Of a stretch of DNA of 64,000 nt, positions 25,691-40,038 are shown one piece after another (the first letter of the stretch is position 1; every line of letters begins with the position of its first letter). The translations under genes were made by a program, and so were the position numbers. The stretch comes from Methanotrichaceae archaeon (GTDB lineage: Archaea; Halobacteriota; Methanosarcinia; Methanotrichales; Methanotrichaceae). Under the pieces are notes generated by a model. It made no database searches. It saw only the letters and a program-made list of their open reading frames with translations, and was not told the DNA's origin. The stretch lies in NCBI GenBank assembly GCA_013178225.1, contig JABLXE010000009.1:62001-126000 (forward strand), written 5' to 3'.

Positions 25691-27967
25691 TTACTTCAGA
25701 TCGTCGTAGCGTTTGCGATCTTTCAGCTCTTGCTTCTTGGCACTGTTCCAGCCGCTGACCGCCTGCAGGTAACCGGTGATCCTGCTGATGTGATCCACCT
25801 TCGCCGAGCCGCAGTTGGGACACTGATCCTTCAGGCCGGCCGAGACCTGATAGCATCCCAGGCACACGGTCATGTCCTTGGTGAAGGTGAAGTACCCGAT
25901 CTGCGTCTCTTTAGCCAGCCTCATTCCGAAGTCCATCAGGCCGCGGGGATCGGGAGTGGCCTCCCCCAGGAAGATGTGGAAGATATTTCCGCCGTCGACT
26001 ATGGGGAAGAAGACGTGCTCCAGCTTGGCCCTCTCGAAGAGAGAGATCCCGGCGCTGGGGGGAAGATGGGTGCCGTTGGTGTAGTAAACCGGGAGATCGC
26101 GAGTTTTTTGAATGTCCCTCTCTACCGCAGCCAGGTCTCCTTTCACCACCTTCTCGGCGCAGTCCCTGAATTCCTCATGGATCAAGTCTGAGACCGCAAA
26201 TCTCTGCGCGGTGGTCTCGGCGGGGGTGCGCGCGAGGGCAATGGTCATGCCATGCTGGGCGGAGAGCTTTTTGGAGTAAATCTCCATCTCGGTCATGGCC
26301 CGAACCGCCAGTTTCCAGGCCTCTCTGGATTCATGCATCTGGCATCCGGTGTGGAACTGCACCATCTCGTTTACTCCCACCACGCCGATGGTGTAGACCA
26401 ATCCCTCCAGGTCGACTGCCACCGAGCCCTTTTCTCCGTTCTGCGGGTCGCGAGGCTGCTGCATGGCGAACGGCATGCGGTGGTTCTTGACTATCTGGTT
26501 CATCCATTCCCGTTTGACCTTGAATATGTCCACGGAGATGTCCATCAGCTCTCGCAGGTACTCGAACAGCAGCTCGTCATCGCCGCGGGCCAGGTAGGCG
26601 GCACGGGGACAGTTCAGCGAGACCACCTGCCAGGACCCCATGGAGAAGTGCATGCCGTCCTTGAATTGCAGCTTATCGTCGAACTGGGAGTCGCTGTCAT
26701 AGGTAGCGGCGAACTGGTAGGCGCAACACTGGTAGCACGATATGCCCTTGCCCGCTCCGCGATACGCGGGAAGCTGATTGTCGAAGTAGGGGGTTCCGTA
26801 CTCGGCTGCCAGCTTGAAGGTGAGCAGATACAGGTCCTGGTAGGTGGGAAGGTCGGGGTGTGAGGCGTTGAAGCTCCCGTCCTCCTTCATGAAGTCCGGC
26901 TCCAGGCTGATCTCCGGCTTGGGGAAGTTGAACGGCTTTCCCCAGTGGTCTCCCTTCAGCATGACTTCCATCAGGGCTTTGAAGGCCAGGCGAACCTCTC
27001 TCTCGAACTGGCCGTAGGTTCGCAGCGGCGCTTCCGGAGAAGATCCGTCCCAGACCCGGCCCGCATATACTGCAGGCTTATCCTTCCACAGCGTGGGCAC
27101 TCCCGGCGTCAGCTGCACTGAGGAGAAGACCAGCTGGCCGCCGCGGGCCACCATCATCTGGGTCATCTCGTAGACGAACATCTGCATCAGCTGCTCGATC
27201 TCCTTGTAGGCGAGCCCTTCGAAGTAGGGGGCGATGAAGGTCAGGAAATTGTAGAAGCCCTGGCCTCCGGCGAAGTTGGTCTGGGCGCTGCCCAGCGCTT
27301 TTACGGCATGCAGGATCGCCACCTCTGCCTTCTTGGCCGGGCCGGCAACGGATGCCTTGGTGCCCAGGCCGTCGGGCATGAGGCCGTAGTAGAAGAAATA
27401 GCGAAGGTCCCAATCTTGGCAGAACGGTCTGGTTCCAAAATACTCCAGGTCGTGGATGTGCAGATCCCCGGCCAGATGGCGGTCGGCCAGGTATGGCGGC
27501 AGCAGCAGCAGGTACTGCTCCTTGCTGATCTTGTCCGCCTTCTTCTTGTGGGAGGTCTCGGCGTTCTCCTGCAGGTTGGCGTTCTCCTTGGACTCAAAGC
27601 CCGTGCCGATGTCGATTAGGTGGGCATCGAAGACCGGGGTGCCGACACGAGTGCAGATGTTGCGCCACTCAGGATGGTGTCTCTCCAAAAGCACCACGTT
27701 CATGATCTCGCGGACCAGCGGGCCGCTCAGGTACTTCACGTTCATCCAGCGCACACGCCGCTCCACCTCGCGGGCGATGTCGCGGGCCTCCTCTTCGCTG
27801 ATGCTGGAAACTTTATAAAATTGTTCTGATAGCTTGGTCTCCTTAATAAGCTGCTTGGCTATGGCATCCCGGTCCCAGTCCAGGAGATGCCCATCGGTGG
27901 TCCTCACCCTGGGCATGGCAGAAACGGCCAGCCCTTCCAGTGTCTGCTGGACGATTCTGCTGCTCAA
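25691..27967 (-). CDS. nrdD: Anaerobic ribonucleoside-triphosphate reductase NrdD
   Basis: Class III reductase that makes dNTPs without oxygen. 758 residues: N-terminal ATP-cone (about 20-110), then the glycyl-radical barrel with DLHIHDLEYF, GGQGFYNFLTFIAPYF and CYQCCAYQF. The C-terminus has the zinc Cys pairs at about 702/705 and 716/719, followed by the radical glycine in SRITGYL at about 732. The start is TTG at 27967 with AGAGGGG before it. The activase NrdG is not adjacent. Confidence 0.95.
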   Translation of the reverse strand: MSSRIVQQTLEGLAVSAMPRVRTTDGHLLDWDRDAIAKQLIKETKLSEQFYKVSSISEEEARDIAREVERRVRWMNVKYLSGPLVREIMNVVLLERHHPEWRNICTRVGTPVFDAHLIDIGTGFESKENANLQENAETSHKKKADKISKEQYLLLLPPYLADRHLAGDLHIHDLEYFGTRPFCQDWDLRYFFYYGLMPDGLGTKASVAGPAKKAEVAILHAVKALGSAQTNFAGGQGFYNFLTFIAPYFEGLAYKEIEQLMQMFVYEMTQMMVARGGQLVFSSVQLTPGVPTLWKDKPAVYAGRVWDGSSPEAPLRTYGQFEREVRLAFKALMEVMLKGDHWGKPFNFPKPEISLEPDFMKEDGSFNASHPDLPTYQDLYLLTFKLAAEYGTPYFDNQLPAYRGAGKGISCYQCCAYQFAATYDSDSQFDDKLQFKDGMHFSMGSWQVVSLNCPRAAYLARGDDELLFEYLRELMDISVDIFKVKREWMNQIVKNHRMPFAMQQPRDPQNGEKGSVAVDLEGLVYTIGVVGVNEMVQFHTGCQMHESREAWKLAVRAMTEMEIYSKKLSAQHGMTIALARTPAETTAQRFAVSDLIHEEFRDCAEKVVKGDLAAVERDIQKTRDLPVYYTNGTHLPPSAGISLFERAKLEHVFFPIVDGGNIFHIFLGEATPDPRGLMDFGMRLAKETQIGYFTFTKDMTVCLGCYQVSAGLKDQCPNCGSAKVDHISRITGYLQAVSGWNSAKKQELKDRKRYDDLK

Positions 27968-29092: not shown

Positions 29093-31726
29093 ATGAATAT
29101 GTTCTCGATCAGTCGTCTCCTGCTCATAGGCCTGCTGGTCACGCTATTGTTTTTTCACCCTGCAGCTTCCGTCTCCGTGAAGGAATCCGGACCCAAGGAG
29201 GTTCTGATCCTTGCCTCCTATAATCCCGGCATGCAGTGGGAGGACAATATCATTTCTGAGATAAAGCTTCACTTCGCCATGAAGATGCCTTCCGCCCGTT
29301 TCACCACTGAGTATATGGACACCAAGCGAATAGAACCAGATGCCGCCCGAATAGCCGATCTGAAGGAACGGTTTATCGAGAAATACAAAGATCGTCGCTT
29401 CGATGTGATCATCTCCTGCGACACCGATGCATTCAATTTCCTGCTCGACTATCGAGACGAGATCTTTCCTGAAACGCCTGTGGTCTTCTGCGGCGTAGTG
29501 TACTTCGACGATTGGATGCTGCAGGGCAAGACCGGGTTTACCGGGGTCCTGGAAGCTTATGACGTGGCAGATACCATCTCCTTGATGCGGAATCTCCATC
29601 CTGAGACCGAGCATATCGCCATAGTCAATGATATGACCGCAACTGGCCTTGCCGCAGAGCGGGTTTTGGATGAAGTCATTCCCGCCTTTGAGAACAATGT
29701 ATCGTTCGAGTACCTGAACAACCTCACCGCAGATGAGCTTCGAGCGAATCTTTCCGCACTCTCCGAGGACAGCCTGGTCCTGCTCATGACTTTTAATCGC
29801 GACAGAAACGGACTGTTTTTAACCTATGGAGATGCCGCACACTTAATCCTGGAAGCGAGTCCTGTTCCCTTTTACAGCGTGTACGAATTTTACCTCGGTT
29901 ACGGCGTTGTGGGAGGAAAAATGGTCAGCAGCTACCTTCAGGGAGATATGGCTGCCGATCTCGCCATCCTAATCCTGCAGGGCGTTCCTGCCGACGAGAT
30001 TCCTGTGGTGACCGATGTCCACAATGAGTACATGTTCGATTACTTCGAGCTGGTTCGAAATGGGATCGACCTTGACCGATTGCCATCTGATGGCAGGATT
30101 ATCAACCGGCCTTTTCAAGCCCAGGCCGATCTTACGGATGAGGACCTCTCCGGCCTGGACATAAGCGGCCAGAACCTGAGCCTATCGGCGCTGGACGGAT
30201 CGAATCTCAGCTATGCGAACTTGAGCGGCACCGACCTGCAAAGGGCCAACATCGCCGGCGCCAACCTGGTGGGGGCAAACCTGAGTGATGCCAACATGAG
30301 GGAGGCCGATCTGCATGGTGCGAATCTCTCTTCTGCCATTGTGGTAGGTGCCAACCTGGTGGCAGCCGATCTGGCTGGTGCCGAACTGCAAGGCGCCAAT
30401 CTGACCGGAGGCAATCTCAATCAGGTCATGATGAGCAATTCCAATCTGACCGGGGCGGCACTTGATATGTCGGATTTGGAGGCAGCAAACCTGAGCTTGT
30501 CCGATCTGACCGGTTCTAGCATTCGTGACGCGTTCATGAATCGCATCAGGCTTCGCGATTCGACTTTAATAGGAGCCAATCTAACGGGATCAAGTATGGT
30601 GGGTGCCAACCTGATTGGTGCTGATTTTTCCCGTGCAGATCTTGCTGGGGCCGATCTCTCTGAGGCAAGAGTCTTCCAAGCCAATTTCTACAAAGCAGAC
30701 ATTAAACGCTCCTTAATGATGGGTTCCAATCTGAGCCAAGCCAATCTCAGCCTTGCAGATTTATCTGGCTGCGTTGCACCTGCATCGAGTTTTGAAAGGG
30801 CAAATCTCTCGGGCGCAAAAATTGAAGGCGCCATGCTAGTGGCGGCCTTCCTGGTTCAGTGCAATCTGACAAATGTCAAGGCCAGTGGTGCCAATCTAAG
30901 AATTGCCCAGCTGAACGATTCTGATCTGTCCAAAGCTGATATGAGCGGGTCGGATTTGACTGGAGCAAACCTTGAAAGTGCCAATTTGACTGGAGCCGAT
31001 CTCAGCGGCACAAGGTTTGTGGGCGCAGATCTCACCATGGCAGTACTTGAGGATACAAGTCTAATTGGCACCAGCTTCATGAACGCACGGTTGAACTGGG
31101 CTCACCTCGACCGAAGTCGGCTTCTGAGGAACATGTTCGCGCGGGCTGAGCTGTTTGGTGTGCATCTGAACGATTCGGATCTGAGCGGATCAGATTTTAC
31201 CAGGGCTTATCTCCCAAGAGCCAATTTATCTGGCGCTAAAATGGAAGGAGTCGTGCTGGATCATGCCGATCTCACCAACGCCAACTTATCGAGAGCGCAG
31301 TTGAGAGACGTGAGGCTCACCAAGACCTACTTGGATAGTGCCGACCTATCACATGCTGATTTGAGCGGAGCTGTTATGTCGTTGCTGAGCATTAAAGATG
31401 CCGATTTTCACGATGCCAAGCTGAGAGCTGCGTCATTGAGATCGATGAACCTGGACGGTGTTGATCTGAGCGGCGCTGATCTGAGGGATACTGATATTAG
31501 CTTGGTCTCCCTGACGAATGTGAACCTCTCGGGCAGTGACCTCAGTGGTGCAAATCTGACAGATGTGGCATTAATCGGGGTCAATCTCAGCCGATCCAAT
31601 CTTGAAGGGCTGAAGTATAACCCGGTAACTCTTCACTTCCTGGTGCATTCGAACCTGGATGGGGCCAAGATCAGTGTAGCTATGCAAGAAGATCTGCGAA
31701 GAGCAAAGGCCGAATTGGATTCTTGA
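29093..31726 (+). CDS. Secreted substrate-binding domain fused to about 100 pentapeptide repeats
   Basis: About 877 residues. Signal peptide (SRLLLIGLLVTLLFFHPAA) at the N-terminus. Residues about 33-330 resemble a periplasmic binding protein of the ABC-type (COG2984-like) class also found as sensor domains: KEVLILASYNPGMQWEDNII, FDVIISCDTDAFNFLLDYRD, TPVVFCGVVYFDDWML, HIAIVNDMTATG. Residues about 345-866 are nearly unbroken A(D/N)LxG pentapeptides, roughly 26 turns of a right-handed quadrilateral beta-helix. I know of no described protein with both parts. The start is ATG 29093, or 29099 just after. Confidence 0.85.
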   Translation: MNMFSISRLLLIGLLVTLLFFHPAASVSVKESGPKEVLILASYNPGMQWEDNIISEIKLHFAMKMPSARFTTEYMDTKRIEPDAARIADLKERFIEKYKDRRFDVIISCDTDAFNFLLDYRDEIFPETPVVFCGVVYFDDWMLQGKTGFTGVLEAYDVADTISLMRNLHPETEHIAIVNDMTATGLAAERVLDEVIPAFENNVSFEYLNNLTADELRANLSALSEDSLVLLMTFNRDRNGLFLTYGDAAHLILEASPVPFYSVYEFYLGYGVVGGKMVSSYLQGDMAADLAILILQGVPADEIPVVTDVHNEYMFDYFELVRNGIDLDRLPSDGRIINRPFQAQADLTDEDLSGLDISGQNLSLSALDGSNLSYANLSGTDLQRANIAGANLVGANLSDANMREADLHGANLSSAIVVGANLVAADLAGAELQGANLTGGNLNQVMMSNSNLTGAALDMSDLEAANLSLSDLTGSSIRDAFMNRIRLRDSTLIGANLTGSSMVGANLIGADFSRADLAGADLSEARVFQANFYKADIKRSLMMGSNLSQANLSLADLSGCVAPASSFERANLSGAKIEGAMLVAAFLVQCNLTNVKASGANLRIAQLNDSDLSKADMSGSDLTGANLESANLTGADLSGTRFVGADLTMAVLEDTSLIGTSFMNARLNWAHLDRSRLLRNMFARAELFGVHLNDSDLSGSDFTRAYLPRANLSGAKMEGVVLDHADLTNANLSRAQLRDVRLTKTYLDSADLSHADLSGAVMSLLSIKDADFHDAKLRAASLRSMNLDGVDLSGADLRDTDISLVSLTNVNLSGSDLSGANLTDVALIGVNLSRSNLEGLKYNPVTLHFLVHSNLDGAKISVAMQEDLRRAKAELDS

Positions 31727-31773: not shown

Positions 31774-32061
31774 ATGTTCGGAAGATGCAATGCCACCCGG
31801 CGGCTGATCGTTATCTCGATCACGGCCTCACTTCTGTTCATGGCGTCTCCTGTTCAGGGCAGCCATTCGGACCTGGAGAAGTTCGTCCTGGAAAATGAAG
31901 ATTCCAGGATCGATGCCCGCGACCTGGCCTTTCTGCTGGTCACTCATGATTTCGATGCCATGCCCAGAGGGGACTATGTTGTGGTTAAGATAGACGGGGC
32001 CGCCTACAGGCTGACGCCCAATGGCAATCGGCCAGGGTTAGCCGATATATCTGCCGGTTGA
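31774..32061 (+). CDS. Small secreted protein, unknown
   Basis: About 95 residues from ATG 31774 (MFGRCNATRRLIVISITASLLFMASPVQGSHSD), with a signal peptide ending near VQGS. The rest (EKFVLENEDSRIDARDLAFLLVTHDFDAMP) has no family I recognise. The frame is open from TTG 31723, which overlaps the stop of the pentapeptide gene, so the two may be coupled. The start is not settled. Confidence 0.55.
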   Translation: MFGRCNATRRLIVISITASLLFMASPVQGSHSDLEKFVLENEDSRIDARDLAFLLVTHDFDAMPRGDYVVVKIDGAAYRLTPNGNRPGLADISAG

Positions 32062-35497: not shown

Positions 35498-38400
35498 TCA
35501 ATCAATTTGGAAGCAGTCGTAGTGCGAAATGGAGCCTCCCGGCAGCTCAAAGTCCATCCAGTTTTCAGAGGCGCACGCGCAGGGTTCGTCTAGAGTCGCC
35601 AAACAGTGTCCCGAGTCGCTGCAGTACTCCAGATCCGCGGGTGGAGCAACGGGGCAGCAGCCCAGCCAGCTCTGTCCGAGGGCGGTGCAGTTCTCGGCCC
35701 TGACCCACTGATCTCCATAACCACCTGAAGCCGAGATGCACATGACTGCCGGATCGGGAGATCTCGATATGTCAAGGACCAGATCCAGGATCAGGGAGGT
35801 GCCGATGGACAGATGGGTCAGCGTCCATGAAGACGAGTTCGGGGACATCTCATAGGGCTTGTGGGAGGTGTTCAGGAATTCGGAGCCCGCCGGGAAGAGG
35901 GCTTTCACATGGACCGGCCCCAGGGCAGAGTTGCCGTCGTTCAGTATGGTGATCCTGTAGCCGGCAACGGTTTCATTGAGAAGCCGCCCCTCTAACGAAA
36001 GGTTAAGATGAGGACGGTCGAACCTGGAGACGCCTTTTAGAAGGATCTTTCTTTTCACATGATAGTCGCCTGCCAGCACCTGGTCGACCTCTGTTGACTG
36101 GTTTTCCTTTCCGCCCGAAGAGGCTCGAAAACTGCTTTTCCCGGAGAATTCCGAATCGGATTCCATCTCGTTCAGGCCGCCGAAGACGGTTTTCTTCCTG
36201 AGCCGTTCGACAGTGGAATAGGCTTCGCCGACATAGCTGTCCTTGCTCTGAGACCACATCTCTTCCCGCCAATCCATTCCTTTGCCCAGTTGCGGAAACG
36301 GAGGGCCAAGAGAGACCGGGCGGGAGGCCAGCTCCAGCTCCTTGGACATGTAGCTGGTCTCGGTCCTGATCTGCTCTGACGAGCTATATATTCCAGCTCC
36401 GGCCTCGCTGCTGCCCTGGGCAGTCCCGATCTTTCTATCGGCAGCGACCAGGCCCCAGCCTGAGGCCGACCTGCTCCAGTGCAGGCTCTGGCCCTGCTCC
36501 TGCACGCTCAAGGATACTAGGATCCGGCCAAGATAGCTCTCGCTGGCCGAAAAGCTCAGATTTGCCGGATTGAGGGCCTTGAAGGGAGATTTCTTTCGCA
36601 ACTGCAGCTGGGACTGCCCCTCCAAATCGGATATCAGATCGATCTCCGAGCCGTTTTGATCCAGGAATACACGGGAACCGGCCTTCAATCGCGAGGCGTA
36701 CCGGACGGCATCCCTCAAATAGATCCCTGTAACGCCGTTTTCGGCTCGCACAGACCTGGCCCAGGGGGAGGTGATCTCCATTGCTTCCATTCCCGGAACA
36801 GGAAAGCCTACCGGCTCGAAGGCTGCGCTCATGTTCTGGTCCCAGGCGATGGATTTATTGGCTGACAGAAAGCGCAAGTTCTCCTGAAAGGCACAGCTTC
36901 CGCTGCCGTGATCGCGGATGGATAGCCCGGTTCCGGCGTCCCCCACAATCAGGACCTTCTCAGAGTCGGAGAGCATAGGGCCTTCATCGCTGCTGACGTA
37001 GACCCGGTTGGTCAGCAGATAGGGCTCTTCAGCAGTGCGAAAGTCCTGAAAAACGTTGGCAAAGCCCGTTCCCGATACGCCCTGCCGGGAAGAGAAGGCC
37101 ACATCGGTTCTGGGAACGCGCACTACCAGCTCGATTCGGGCGCACTCTCCGGGCTCCAGTGACCCAATGTGCCAGATGCCGGGGGCGGTTTGGGAAGGCC
37201 AGGAGTAGACCTGCTCAACCCTCGAGTCCAGGATGTCCTCTACCGTCACATTGCTGGCCCGCTCTCCGCCTCCGTTGCAGACTGTGATCTGGTAGAAGAT
37301 CTCCTCGCCCCGTCGGACTGACTTCTGCGCCGCGGTTTTGTTGACCTGCAGCCGGGTGCGGTTCAGCACCTCGGTGAGGAGCACTCCTGCCACCTGAGGA
37401 TGTCCCTCGCACTCGATAGAGTAGCGGTTTTCGAGCAAGGTGCCGTTCCTCAGGTCATTTCTGACTTTAACCTGTATCTCGATCTCGTGCGGCCCGTCTG
37501 GGGAGAGCAGTGGGAGGAACCAGGTATGGTTCGCGAAAGGTGGTGGATTGGAGGCGACCATCTCCACACCGGGATCGAGCCGGTCGGTGATGGTGACGTT
37601 TCTGACCTTTACAGAACCCTGATTTTGAAATGACAGCTTATAGGTGAGAAACTCGCCCACGCTCACAGGATCGGGAGAAGCGGATTTGGAGATCGAAAGG
37701 CGAATGCTGTTGACGGCAGCGCTGGCCGTTCGAAAGTAGTCGTTAAGCCCGCCTGATCCGCCCCGTTCATGTGGATTCTGTCCTGAGGCGCTGGACCAGG
37801 AGAGGCGGGCCGTGTTCTCCAGCACCTGGCCTGGGCCTGCTTCGGCCATGGTGGCGTTGTATTTTATGATGATCTTCGAACTCTCTACCCATTCCCGGGA
37901 AACGGCATCGAGATGCCAGCACAGGTCGGGACCATCTTCGAAGTCTGCCGCTGGACCGCTGAGGACCCTAGCGGAGCCCGGACAGTACTGGAGGCCTGGC
38001 GGCAGCTGGTCGCGCAGATCGACGTCAAAGGCCGTAGAACTGCTCTGAGCGCCGTGGCAGAGGGCGATGGTGTAGGTGATGAGGCTTCCCTCGCCACCGG
38101 CCGATGAGGACACGCTCTTCTCCAGCATCAGGTCCGGCTCGGCTATTGCGATCTCTCCTGCCGAATCGCTGTCGATATGAGGACCTTCTTCATCCAGCCA
38201 GCTCATGCAGGCCGCTTTTCCATTTAGGATCGTTCCAGCCTGGTTCTCGATGATGTTTACGACGCGGGCCCGGTAGCTGATCTCAATTCTTTTGGCCGAT
38301 CCGAGATCGCCCAAAAACCACGACCTTCCGGCAGAGCCGTCCTCTGACGTGCTTGTAAGCTCCCTCTGCACAACAGCTCCAGAGATCACGAAGCTCGATT

Positions 38401-39730
38401 GGTCGTAGATCAGTCCGGAAGAGATGCTGTCGTTGATCCACAGATTTTTCGCCCCTTTGGGAAGATTGGCCACAATCCGGAAGCCTACAGAGTCTCCGAT
38501 GGCCAATGGTGCCGAAGAATCCGGAAGCTTCTGAATCGCAGTACGCTGGTCCAAATCGGACCTCAGCACCAGCTGCTGACAGGGGCCGCATCCCCAAACG
38601 ACCTGCATAGCAGTCGAATAGTCTACCGCATCAAGCGCACGGGCCCGAAGATGGACAACCTCCTTCCCACCGGGGGAAAGAGCAGAATAGCTCCAGTTCA
38701 AGCATCCGCCCGGCGAATCCAGGCTTTCGGGCTCCAGGCCGCGTCCCAGGGTTAAATTTGCTAAAACATCATGGGCAGTGCCGTTTCCCTGATTGTAGAT
38801 CTCAATCTCCCACGATACCCGGTCCCCAGAGGCGACTTCGAAACGATCGGGAACCAGAGACAGGCTGAGATTGGCCCGGCTCAGATCCAGCGAAGGCGAG
38901 CTGACAGATAGGGAACCGGCACTGGAGGAGATCTCTGCCGATAGAGCCTGTCCCGGCCTCGCCTCACAGCCAGCGGTCAGGTCAAACCATAGGACTATCG
39001 ACTCACCTGAATAGAGATCGAAGCAGGCACCTCCGTTATGAGACCCACTGGTCGAGGCTTGAAAAGTCCAATCAGACGGTTGGTCCAGGTCCTTGCCGTT
39101 GGGGTTTCGTGCCCAACATCTCTCGTCGTCTTCCTCGTCTTTTCCTTCCAGACTTCGGTCCACCTCCCTGTCGGAGGAGTCGTACAGGACTATGCCCACC
39201 TGACGGGAGTTAATCAGGGTTCCGTTGCTCCAGGGTAGGGTCAGAAAAGAGCCGGGAGAAATCACATTTTCAGAGGATATGGCAACTGATTTTCCATAGT
39301 AGCTGTCCACCAGCTTCCATCCTGCGAGATTGATCTCCTCTGTGCCCGGATTGAACAGCTCCACCCACTCGTTTCCTCCATCGGGCCCGTCGGGGTTCTG
39401 CTCGAACTCGTTGATGACCACGTATCGACAAGACGACAAGGCCTCGGTCAGATGCCACCGGAGCGAGCCGCTGCTAATTGTGGGTGCGCATTCTGTTTCC
39501 CGTCCCCTGAAGCGGATTCTTGAATTTCCGGCGTAATAGAATCCATCAGGAAGACGAACGCACACTGCCAAATTATCTGCAGGCGAGCCGTCATTGGCAA
39601 TGGTCAGGCTATAGGTTTCAGGATTGCAGATCTCGACCTGTTCCGGAATGAAAAGGCTTCCATCGATGGCCACTACGGAATGAAGCGATGATAAAAGGAC
39701 GACTGCTAGGAGAAGTCTCTTGAGCGTCAA
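35498..39730 (-). CDS. Giant secreted surface protein with lamin-tail and DUF11 repeats
   Basis: About 1410 residues from a TTG that gives a clean signal peptide (LKRLLLAVVLLSSLHSVVA); an upstream GTG at 39832 would place 34 unlikely residues before it. A lamin-tail (LTD) domain lies at about residues 105-215 (VVINEFEQNPDGPDGGNEWVELFNPG). Four or five DUF11-type Ig-like repeats follow, with phrases like VSVGEFLTYKLSFQNQGSVKVRNVTITDRLDPG. The C-terminal part is less repetitive and ends in a Cys-rich tail (CCPVAPPADLEYC...CACASENW). No membrane anchor is seen. Adhesion or envelope role inferred. Confidence 0.8.
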   Translation of the reverse strand: MTLKRLLLAVVLLSSLHSVVAIDGSLFIPEQVEICNPETYSLTIANDGSPADNLAVCVRLPDGFYYAGNSRIRFRGRETECAPTISSGSLRWHLTEALSSCRYVVINEFEQNPDGPDGGNEWVELFNPGTEEINLAGWKLVDSYYGKSVAISSENVISPGSFLTLPWSNGTLINSRQVGIVLYDSSDREVDRSLEGKDEEDDERCWARNPNGKDLDQPSDWTFQASTSGSHNGGACFDLYSGESIVLWFDLTAGCEARPGQALSAEISSSAGSLSVSSPSLDLSRANLSLSLVPDRFEVASGDRVSWEIEIYNQGNGTAHDVLANLTLGRGLEPESLDSPGGCLNWSYSALSPGGKEVVHLRARALDAVDYSTAMQVVWGCGPCQQLVLRSDLDQRTAIQKLPDSSAPLAIGDSVGFRIVANLPKGAKNLWINDSISSGLIYDQSSFVISGAVVQRELTSTSEDGSAGRSWFLGDLGSAKRIEISYRARVVNIIENQAGTILNGKAACMSWLDEEGPHIDSDSAGEIAIAEPDLMLEKSVSSSAGGEGSLITYTIALCHGAQSSSTAFDVDLRDQLPPGLQYCPGSARVLSGPAADFEDGPDLCWHLDAVSREWVESSKIIIKYNATMAEAGPGQVLENTARLSWSSASGQNPHERGGSGGLNDYFRTASAAVNSIRLSISKSASPDPVSVGEFLTYKLSFQNQGSVKVRNVTITDRLDPGVEMVASNPPPFANHTWFLPLLSPDGPHEIEIQVKVRNDLRNGTLLENRYSIECEGHPQVAGVLLTEVLNRTRLQVNKTAAQKSVRRGEEIFYQITVCNGGGERASNVTVEDILDSRVEQVYSWPSQTAPGIWHIGSLEPGECARIELVVRVPRTDVAFSSRQGVSGTGFANVFQDFRTAEEPYLLTNRVYVSSDEGPMLSDSEKVLIVGDAGTGLSIRDHGSGSCAFQENLRFLSANKSIAWDQNMSAAFEPVGFPVPGMEAMEITSPWARSVRAENGVTGIYLRDAVRYASRLKAGSRVFLDQNGSEIDLISDLEGQSQLQLRKKSPFKALNPANLSFSASESYLGRILVSLSVQEQGQSLHWSRSASGWGLVAADRKIGTAQGSSEAGAGIYSSSEQIRTETSYMSKELELASRPVSLGPPFPQLGKGMDWREEMWSQSKDSYVGEAYSTVERLRKKTVFGGLNEMESDSEFSGKSSFRASSGGKENQSTEVDQVLAGDYHVKRKILLKGVSRFDRPHLNLSLEGRLLNETVAGYRITILNDGNSALGPVHVKALFPAGSEFLNTSHKPYEMSPNSSSWTLTHLSIGTSLILDLVLDISRSPDPAVMCISASGGYGDQWVRAENCTALGQSWLGCCPVAPPADLEYCSDSGHCLATLDEPCACASENWMDFELPGGSISHYDCFQID

Positions 39731-40038
39731 GAGAAATACAGGAAGCAGTATTCTGCCCCCGAGACATAGTTTTAAATTTTTTGAATTAGTGGGGTGCCAT
39801 ATCAAACCAACGTCCGATCCCATATCCAGCACATTGCCTTTGACGGAAGCGATAGTATCAGATCTGATCTACATCACACCTAGGTATTTTTGGTACGGAT
39901 GTTAGATCAGTAATATCATGTATAAATATTTTTTCTGTTAGAAAATGGGGTGCAACAAATCTCACTGCGTATAAAATAGATAAATATTCACCAATTTTTA
40001 GAAAATAAAATGCGCAACGCCAGAGCCTGCAAACAATG

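Follow-up and report, generated by a model that had tools for sequence, protein, structure and literature searches.

A solute-binding domain carried on a long pentapeptide-repeat rod is encoded in a Methanotrichaceae genome (2.98 Mb, 28 contigs), and the same arrangement recurs in 31 complete relatives from this family, whose members are methanogens that use acetate. On balance, the protein is probably a secreted, rod-mounted solute-binding protein, with its head outside the membrane and docked via the C-terminal half of the rod. The gene lies in the 64,000-nucleotide stretch of DNA that was analysed, here called the window, and its features are collected in Table 1.

Results

A predicted secreted protein with a head and a rod

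The open reading frame at 29093-31726 of the forward strand encodes 877 amino acids counted from its ATG; an alternative GTG start 42 bases upstream would give 891. The N-terminal hydrophobic stretch is the sole membrane-type segment of the protein, with none beyond about residue 30, and by eye the small residues PAAS precede the mature start. Together, the signal-like N-terminus and the absence of a second membrane segment point to a mature protein that is extracellular in its entirety. An AlphaFold2 model built with 32 sequences had a mean pLDDT of 90.7 and a pTM of 0.63. Local pLDDT was mostly 94-98 on the rod and about 69-93 on the head, and was low for the linker at residues 21-32. Because of the pTM value, the modelled angle between head and rod is uncertain.

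Table 1. Coordinates in the window of the features of the 877-residue protein and of the linked small protein FAM1
Feature	Residues	Position	Strand	Basis
Predicted Sec signal peptide (cleavage site approximate)	about 1-25	29093..29167	+	Hydrophobic segment
Head, type I periplasmic-binding fold, TrpX/ABC_sub_bind-like	33-338	29189..30106	+	PF04392 and fold comparison
Rod, 100 in-register pentapeptides forming 25 predicted quadrilateral β-helix coils	345-844	30125..31624	+	Register count, PF00805, model
Most conserved surface strip of the rod, adjacent faces 4 and 1, coils 15-20	640-729	31010..31279	+	Outward entropy
C-terminal cap, two short helices	845-877	31625..31723	+	Model, conservation, MfpA alignment
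FAM1, candidate small secreted partner (95 amino acids from ATG 31774; open reading frame open from TTG 31723)		31774..32061	+	Linkage to rods

The rod was detected by PF00805 with an E value of 6.6e-100 (326 bits, cut-off 20.2) in 16 stretches. Over residues 351-862, the best register has 88 of 102 positions in agreement with the pentapeptide pattern, where 2000 shuffles gave 15 on average and 24 at most. The original prediction had counted about 104 repeats in a very long quadrilateral β-helix; the count was slightly high, the unbroken frame holding 100, and the long helix is reproduced in the predicted model. The modelled fold is a right-handed quadrilateral β-helix, and it matched HetL (3du1) with a Z score of 33.3 in VIA fold comparison. 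Pentapeptide β-helices rise 4.8 Å per coil, so that 25 coils would give a rod of about 12 nm. The cap that follows has modelled helices at 844-850 and 862-876, and its L855 and G857 are invariant in the alignment of complete headed rods. Fold comparison aligned residues 696-877 of the model with the C-terminal part of MfpA (2bm4; Z 20.5).

Likeness to MfpA and to QnrB1, which was also among the fold matches, brings up a cytoplasmic DNA mimic or gyrase protector of the MfpA/Qnr kind, in which the N-terminus would be a non-working signal; the net charge of the rod, -22, also fits such a role. This is highly improbable, since the N-terminus is hydrophobic, the head comes from an extracytoplasmic family, and the rod is about three times the length of MfpA/Qnr, which have 8-9 coils according to an excerpt of PMC8145042. 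DNA mimicry had been judged unlikely beforehand as well, and the signal-like N-terminus without a second membrane segment agrees with that judgement. A glycan ladder along the rod was considered and is not supported. N-X-S/T sequons occur 19 times at the i-1 position, with face 2 accounting for 11, and Asn is coupled to Ser/Thr less often than Asp is (odds 0.62, p 7e-6), so the sequons just reflect the repeat consensus.

The head has the fold of amino acid-binding proteins

PF04392 (ABC_sub_bind) matched residues 95-308 with an E value of 1.2e-5 and 25.1 bits, against a cut-off of 25.9, and gave 27.7 bits in another profile search; a PDB sequence search with the head returned no match. Because the Pfam signal is weak, the identity of the head was decided by fold comparison. 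The best VIA matches were 3lft (Z 25.7), 3lkv (Z 25.6) and 6hni (Z 25.1), over 275-278 residues at 11-14% identity; for 3lft, the Streptococcus pneumoniae structure with L-Trp, 275 residues aligned with an rmsd of 2.9 and 11% identity. These three are the ABC_sub_bind aromatic amino acid binders SP1069/TrpX, VC_1101 and CD0873, respectively, and the head has their two-lobed fold in common, but they sit on a lipid anchor, whereas the window head sits on a rod. Neither an ABC permease nor an ABC ATPase was found by Pfam in the eight window ORFs scanned between 25691 and 39832. The N-terminal part had been predicted to be a periplasmic binding protein of the type used in sensors, and this is borne out by the match to 3lft and by relatives outside the headed-rod group, which are sensor extracytoplasmic domains.

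Forty head positions are common to rod-mounted and sensor heads, e.g., S42, Y43, W49, D76, D104, D180, Y261 and the G269-G275 region, and on this ground the binding site is probably retained in the rod-mounted heads. Other residues, e.g., R86, D112, R238 and T244, are kept in the rods but differ in the sensors, and differences of this type suggest that the ligand of the rod-mounted head may have changed relative to that of the sensors, or may have been lost.

Headed rods form a single group apart from sensors

The head was found in 31 of the 50 family genomes searched. Forty regions were fetched from the family, of which 34 (L030-L063) are headed rods and six (L064-L069) are sensors; L034, L044 and L051, truncated at the ends of contigs, were left out of alignments. 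The 31 complete headed-rod relatives have 53 to 110 register units each. They rule out a contig chimaera as the source of the fusion and, with the ORF, the Pfam matches, the register count and the model, establish that the predicted order of head and rod is real. The sole relative obtained from the single-sequence contig search, Methanosaeta sp. PtaB.Bin018, has a head 68% identical to the window head, and the window genome is placed in Methanotrichaceae on this basis. In L061 (4918-7779), a partial tandem duplicate of the head's C-terminal lobe lies between head and rod, and a headed rod in one family genome is interrupted by a stop and by shifts of frame, and looks like a copy in decay (G001 C59 16136-16647).

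Across the phylum, the head was detected in 49 of 392 genomes at E ≤ 1e-8, ten of them within Methanotrichaceae. In all 21 genomes examined of the 39 outside the family, a membrane helix follows the head at a distance of about 10 residues or less, with no rod: pentapeptide-like matches number 0-12 in these loci vs 49-53 in the rods compared. Among plasmids, 158 records match, and the best four (Ilyobacter, Acetoanaerobium, Alloyangia and Sinorhizobium) all encode a head and a membrane helix, and no rod; in these loci and in the 21 of the phylum, signalling domains come next. No viral contig with the head was found by tblastn. The six family sensors have heads 25-32% identical to the window head, and one of them, L064, carries PAS, HisKA, HATPase and receiver domains by Pfam. 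For sensors of methanogens (e.g., L064 and L079) and bacteria (L130-L133) taken together, head identity is 25-42%, with conserved head residues in common, but these proteins go on to a membrane helix and signalling domains, and the window protein has neither; Pfam detected no kinase domain in it.

L067, which extends beyond its contig, was not included in the unrooted tree of 58 heads. In this tree, the 32 rod heads fall into a single group (support 96/99; 96% of 200 bootstrap trees) apart from the 26 sensor heads. The sequences therefore suggest that a sensor head was recruited apparently once onto a secreted rod, the direction from sensor to rod being inferred because the sensors are more widely spread.

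Rods vary almost only by whole coils and keep one conserved strip

Rod length was measured from anchor P340 to anchor D843 in 32 headed-rod proteins. Values of 303 (three proteins), 383, 463, 483, 484, 503 (16 proteins), 523, 543, 563 and 583 (six proteins) residues were obtained, and in 31 of the 32 rods the offset from the window rod is a multiple of 20 residues, i.e., whole coils, the exception being 484. The variation is confined to about residues 361-620, and the rod from residue 621 onward is kept in all.

The most conserved strip was sought with a frame of two adjacent faces by five coils placed at all starts, in every shuffle too. The best strip has a mean outward entropy of 1.00 vs 1.73 overall, and a value this low was reached in 2 of 5000 unit shuffles, or in 30 of 5000 if the C-terminal half alone is considered. 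It contains R641, W669, R684, E686, D701, R704, Y706 and D726, and these eight residues, plus D756 and D816, are present in all ten headless secreted rods aligned. The strip is probably a binding surface, and the rod, which carries a conserved strip common to headless rods, is probably not inert. The original prediction of a rigid spacer or surface rod bearing a ligand-binding head is supported in part: the head has the binding-protein fold, but "spacer" understates the rod, as coils 15-20 carry a conserved two-face strip. That prediction also did not include the small protein or the free solute-binding proteins encoded near rods, which are described below.

The many headless secreted rods with the same C-terminal strip would also suit a structural or adhesive part of the Methanothrix sheath or cell plug, the head of which would bind not a free solute but a polymer or a partner. 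In the available portions of two papers, the family is described as sheathed, with very diverse sheath proteins (PMC11576556), and CD0873, a fold relative of the head, as a protein that binds tyrosine and also acts as an adhesin (PMC6816091). We consider this alternative unlikely: the head residues shared with sensors are conserved over 32 proteins, and pentapeptides are not mentioned in those portions of PMC11576556.

A small protein, FAM1, is linked to rods

The small protein that we call FAM1 had no Pfam or NCBIfam family match; a hit to PF05348 (E 0.053) was at chance level and was rejected. It is present in 42 of the 50 family genomes (144 matches listed); a sample of the phylum gave FAM1 in 10 of 294 genomes, each of which belongs to Methanotrichaceae. 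Of the 50 family genomes, 38 contain the C-terminal rod module, and every one of these also has FAM1; four genomes have FAM1 alone and eight have neither. Seventy-four of the 144 listed FAM1 matches lie within 3 kb of a counted rod module, all 74 on the same strand, where about 1.8 would be expected assuming 2.4 Mb genomes and uniform placement; the other 70 lie away from any counted rod. A linked pair is found in 37 of the 38 genomes with both, and in the window genome three of the four FAM1 copies adjoin secreted pentapeptide genes. For headed rods alone, FAM1 lies within 3 kb in 19 of 35; of the 16 rods lacking it, eight have flanking sequence that is cut short on one side and eight do not. 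Our guess from this gene linkage is that FAM1 contacts the rod.

L061 and L070 encode a longer form of FAM1 with an extra stretch in which, by eye, a C..H..D pattern resembles that of transglutaminase-like proteins; this stretch has no Pfam match and was modelled at pLDDT below 60. In the FAM1 domain of L070 (5183-5845), residues 21-90 were modelled at block pLDDT 76-95. Foldseek gave no match to this model at E ≤ 0.001, and the VIA matches (best Z 6.4) fall mainly on residues 122-206, the poorly modelled part, so that no fold is assigned to FAM1.

Other neighbours of the rod genes

Free secreted solute-binding proteins cluster near rods. For genes of the PnrA/Bmp type, 16 of 24 matches have a rod no more than 3 kb away (11 on the same strand); for SBP_bac_3-Cache proteins, 4 of 16 do. 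Near the headed rods of L010 (4866-5867), L035, L039 and L063, of which L010 and L035 are the same locus, there is an ORF of one family that by eye is of the cobalamin/iron-binding type. Very large surface proteins with DUF11-type repeats are encoded near secreted pentapeptide genes in the window (35498-39832, with a lamin-tail domain by Pfam) and elsewhere in the same genome (L070 9942-14417, by eye). The window genome also encodes a secreted pentapeptide-like domain followed, by eye, by an apparent two-helix ion-channel pore (L073 795-2318, G000 C22). The anaerobic ribonucleotide reductase adjoining the rod gene has intein-like insertions at two different sites, in L030 (1-2460) and L031 (7597-9549); the window enzyme (25691-27967) is continuous across both sites, without such an insertion.

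A hybrid histidine kinase is encoded directly upstream of the rod gene, on the same strand, in L037, L049 and L052. Binding proteins are known to dock on receptor kinases, as TorT does on TorS and LuxP on LuxQ. Likewise, the secreted head, once liganded, could dock on a membrane receptor kinase that is a separate protein, and the rod would set the geometry. The use of the head family in sensors and the presence of TorT-TorS (3o1i, Z 17.3) among the head fold matches are in keeping with this. We nevertheless regard such a co-sensor as unlikely, because the upstream kinases look soluble by eye (that of L037 consists of PAS, GAF, HisKA, HATPase and REC domains by Pfam) and are found in 3 of about 35 loci, with none in the eight window ORFs scanned. 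A quorum-sensor link was rejected: according to an excerpt of PMC3991700, the sensor domain of FilI from Methanosaeta harundinacea is of the CHASE4 type, which is not that of the window head.

Discussion

The scheme that we favor, drawn from the anatomy, conservation and linkage, is that of a rod-mounted solute-binding protein. The 877-residue protein would be exported by Sec and would be located between the membrane and the sheath, or on the filament surface, where the head would bind a small molecule. The rod would separate the head by about 12 nm from a docking site on the strip of coils 15-20 and/or the C-terminal cap, to which FAM1 or another surface protein would bind, and whole-coil changes in length would set the reach while leaving docking undisturbed. 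The role could be ligand capture, concentration or presentation, or that of a ligand-sensitive adhesin. Without a membrane crossing after the signal, the protein cannot itself signal across the membrane, and this favors ligand capture or presentation. As a broader and more tentative possibility, Methanotrichaceae may have a modular extracellular apparatus composed of headed and headless rods of whole-coil lengths with one docking strip, FAM1, and free solute-binding proteins from two or more other families, which would act as a scaffold gathering or presenting solutes in or on the sheath.

There is precedent for a secreted pentapeptide protein in YjbI/sPRP of Caulobacter, as described in an excerpt of PMC12864828. 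Like the window rod, YjbI and the lumenal Rfr proteins of Cyanothece (2f3l, 2g0y) are exported quadrilateral β-helices, but the window protein adds a head and a much longer rod. According to the same excerpt, two conserved pairs of cysteines flank the helix of YjbI, and its C-terminal tail, which is charged, spans the outer membrane; the window protein lacks both features. The only cysteines of the mature window protein are C109, C133, C560 and C590, no rod cysteine is invariant in the alignment, and no C-terminal hydrophobic segment was found. Archaea of this kind are not known to have an outer membrane of the YjbI type. HetL and MfpA/Qnr share the fold of the rod (Z 33.3 and about 20-23, respectively), and MfpA also has a C-terminal helix cap, but these proteins are short, cytoplasmic and headless (in part from the excerpt of PMC8145042). 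No solute-binding domain on a pentapeptide rod was named in the open-licence papers searched. The parts are of known kinds. As far as this literature search shows, no description exists of their combination, of what appears to be its one origin, of the length steps by whole coils or of the linkage to FAM1.

Very little is known of what secreted pentapeptide proteins do. In the window protein, the head fused to the rod points to a class of function, solute binding; the strip suggests a docking site, and FAM1 is a candidate partner. The headed rods may also show how a sensor domain turned into a free binding protein on a rod, within one of the major groups of methanogens that use acetate.
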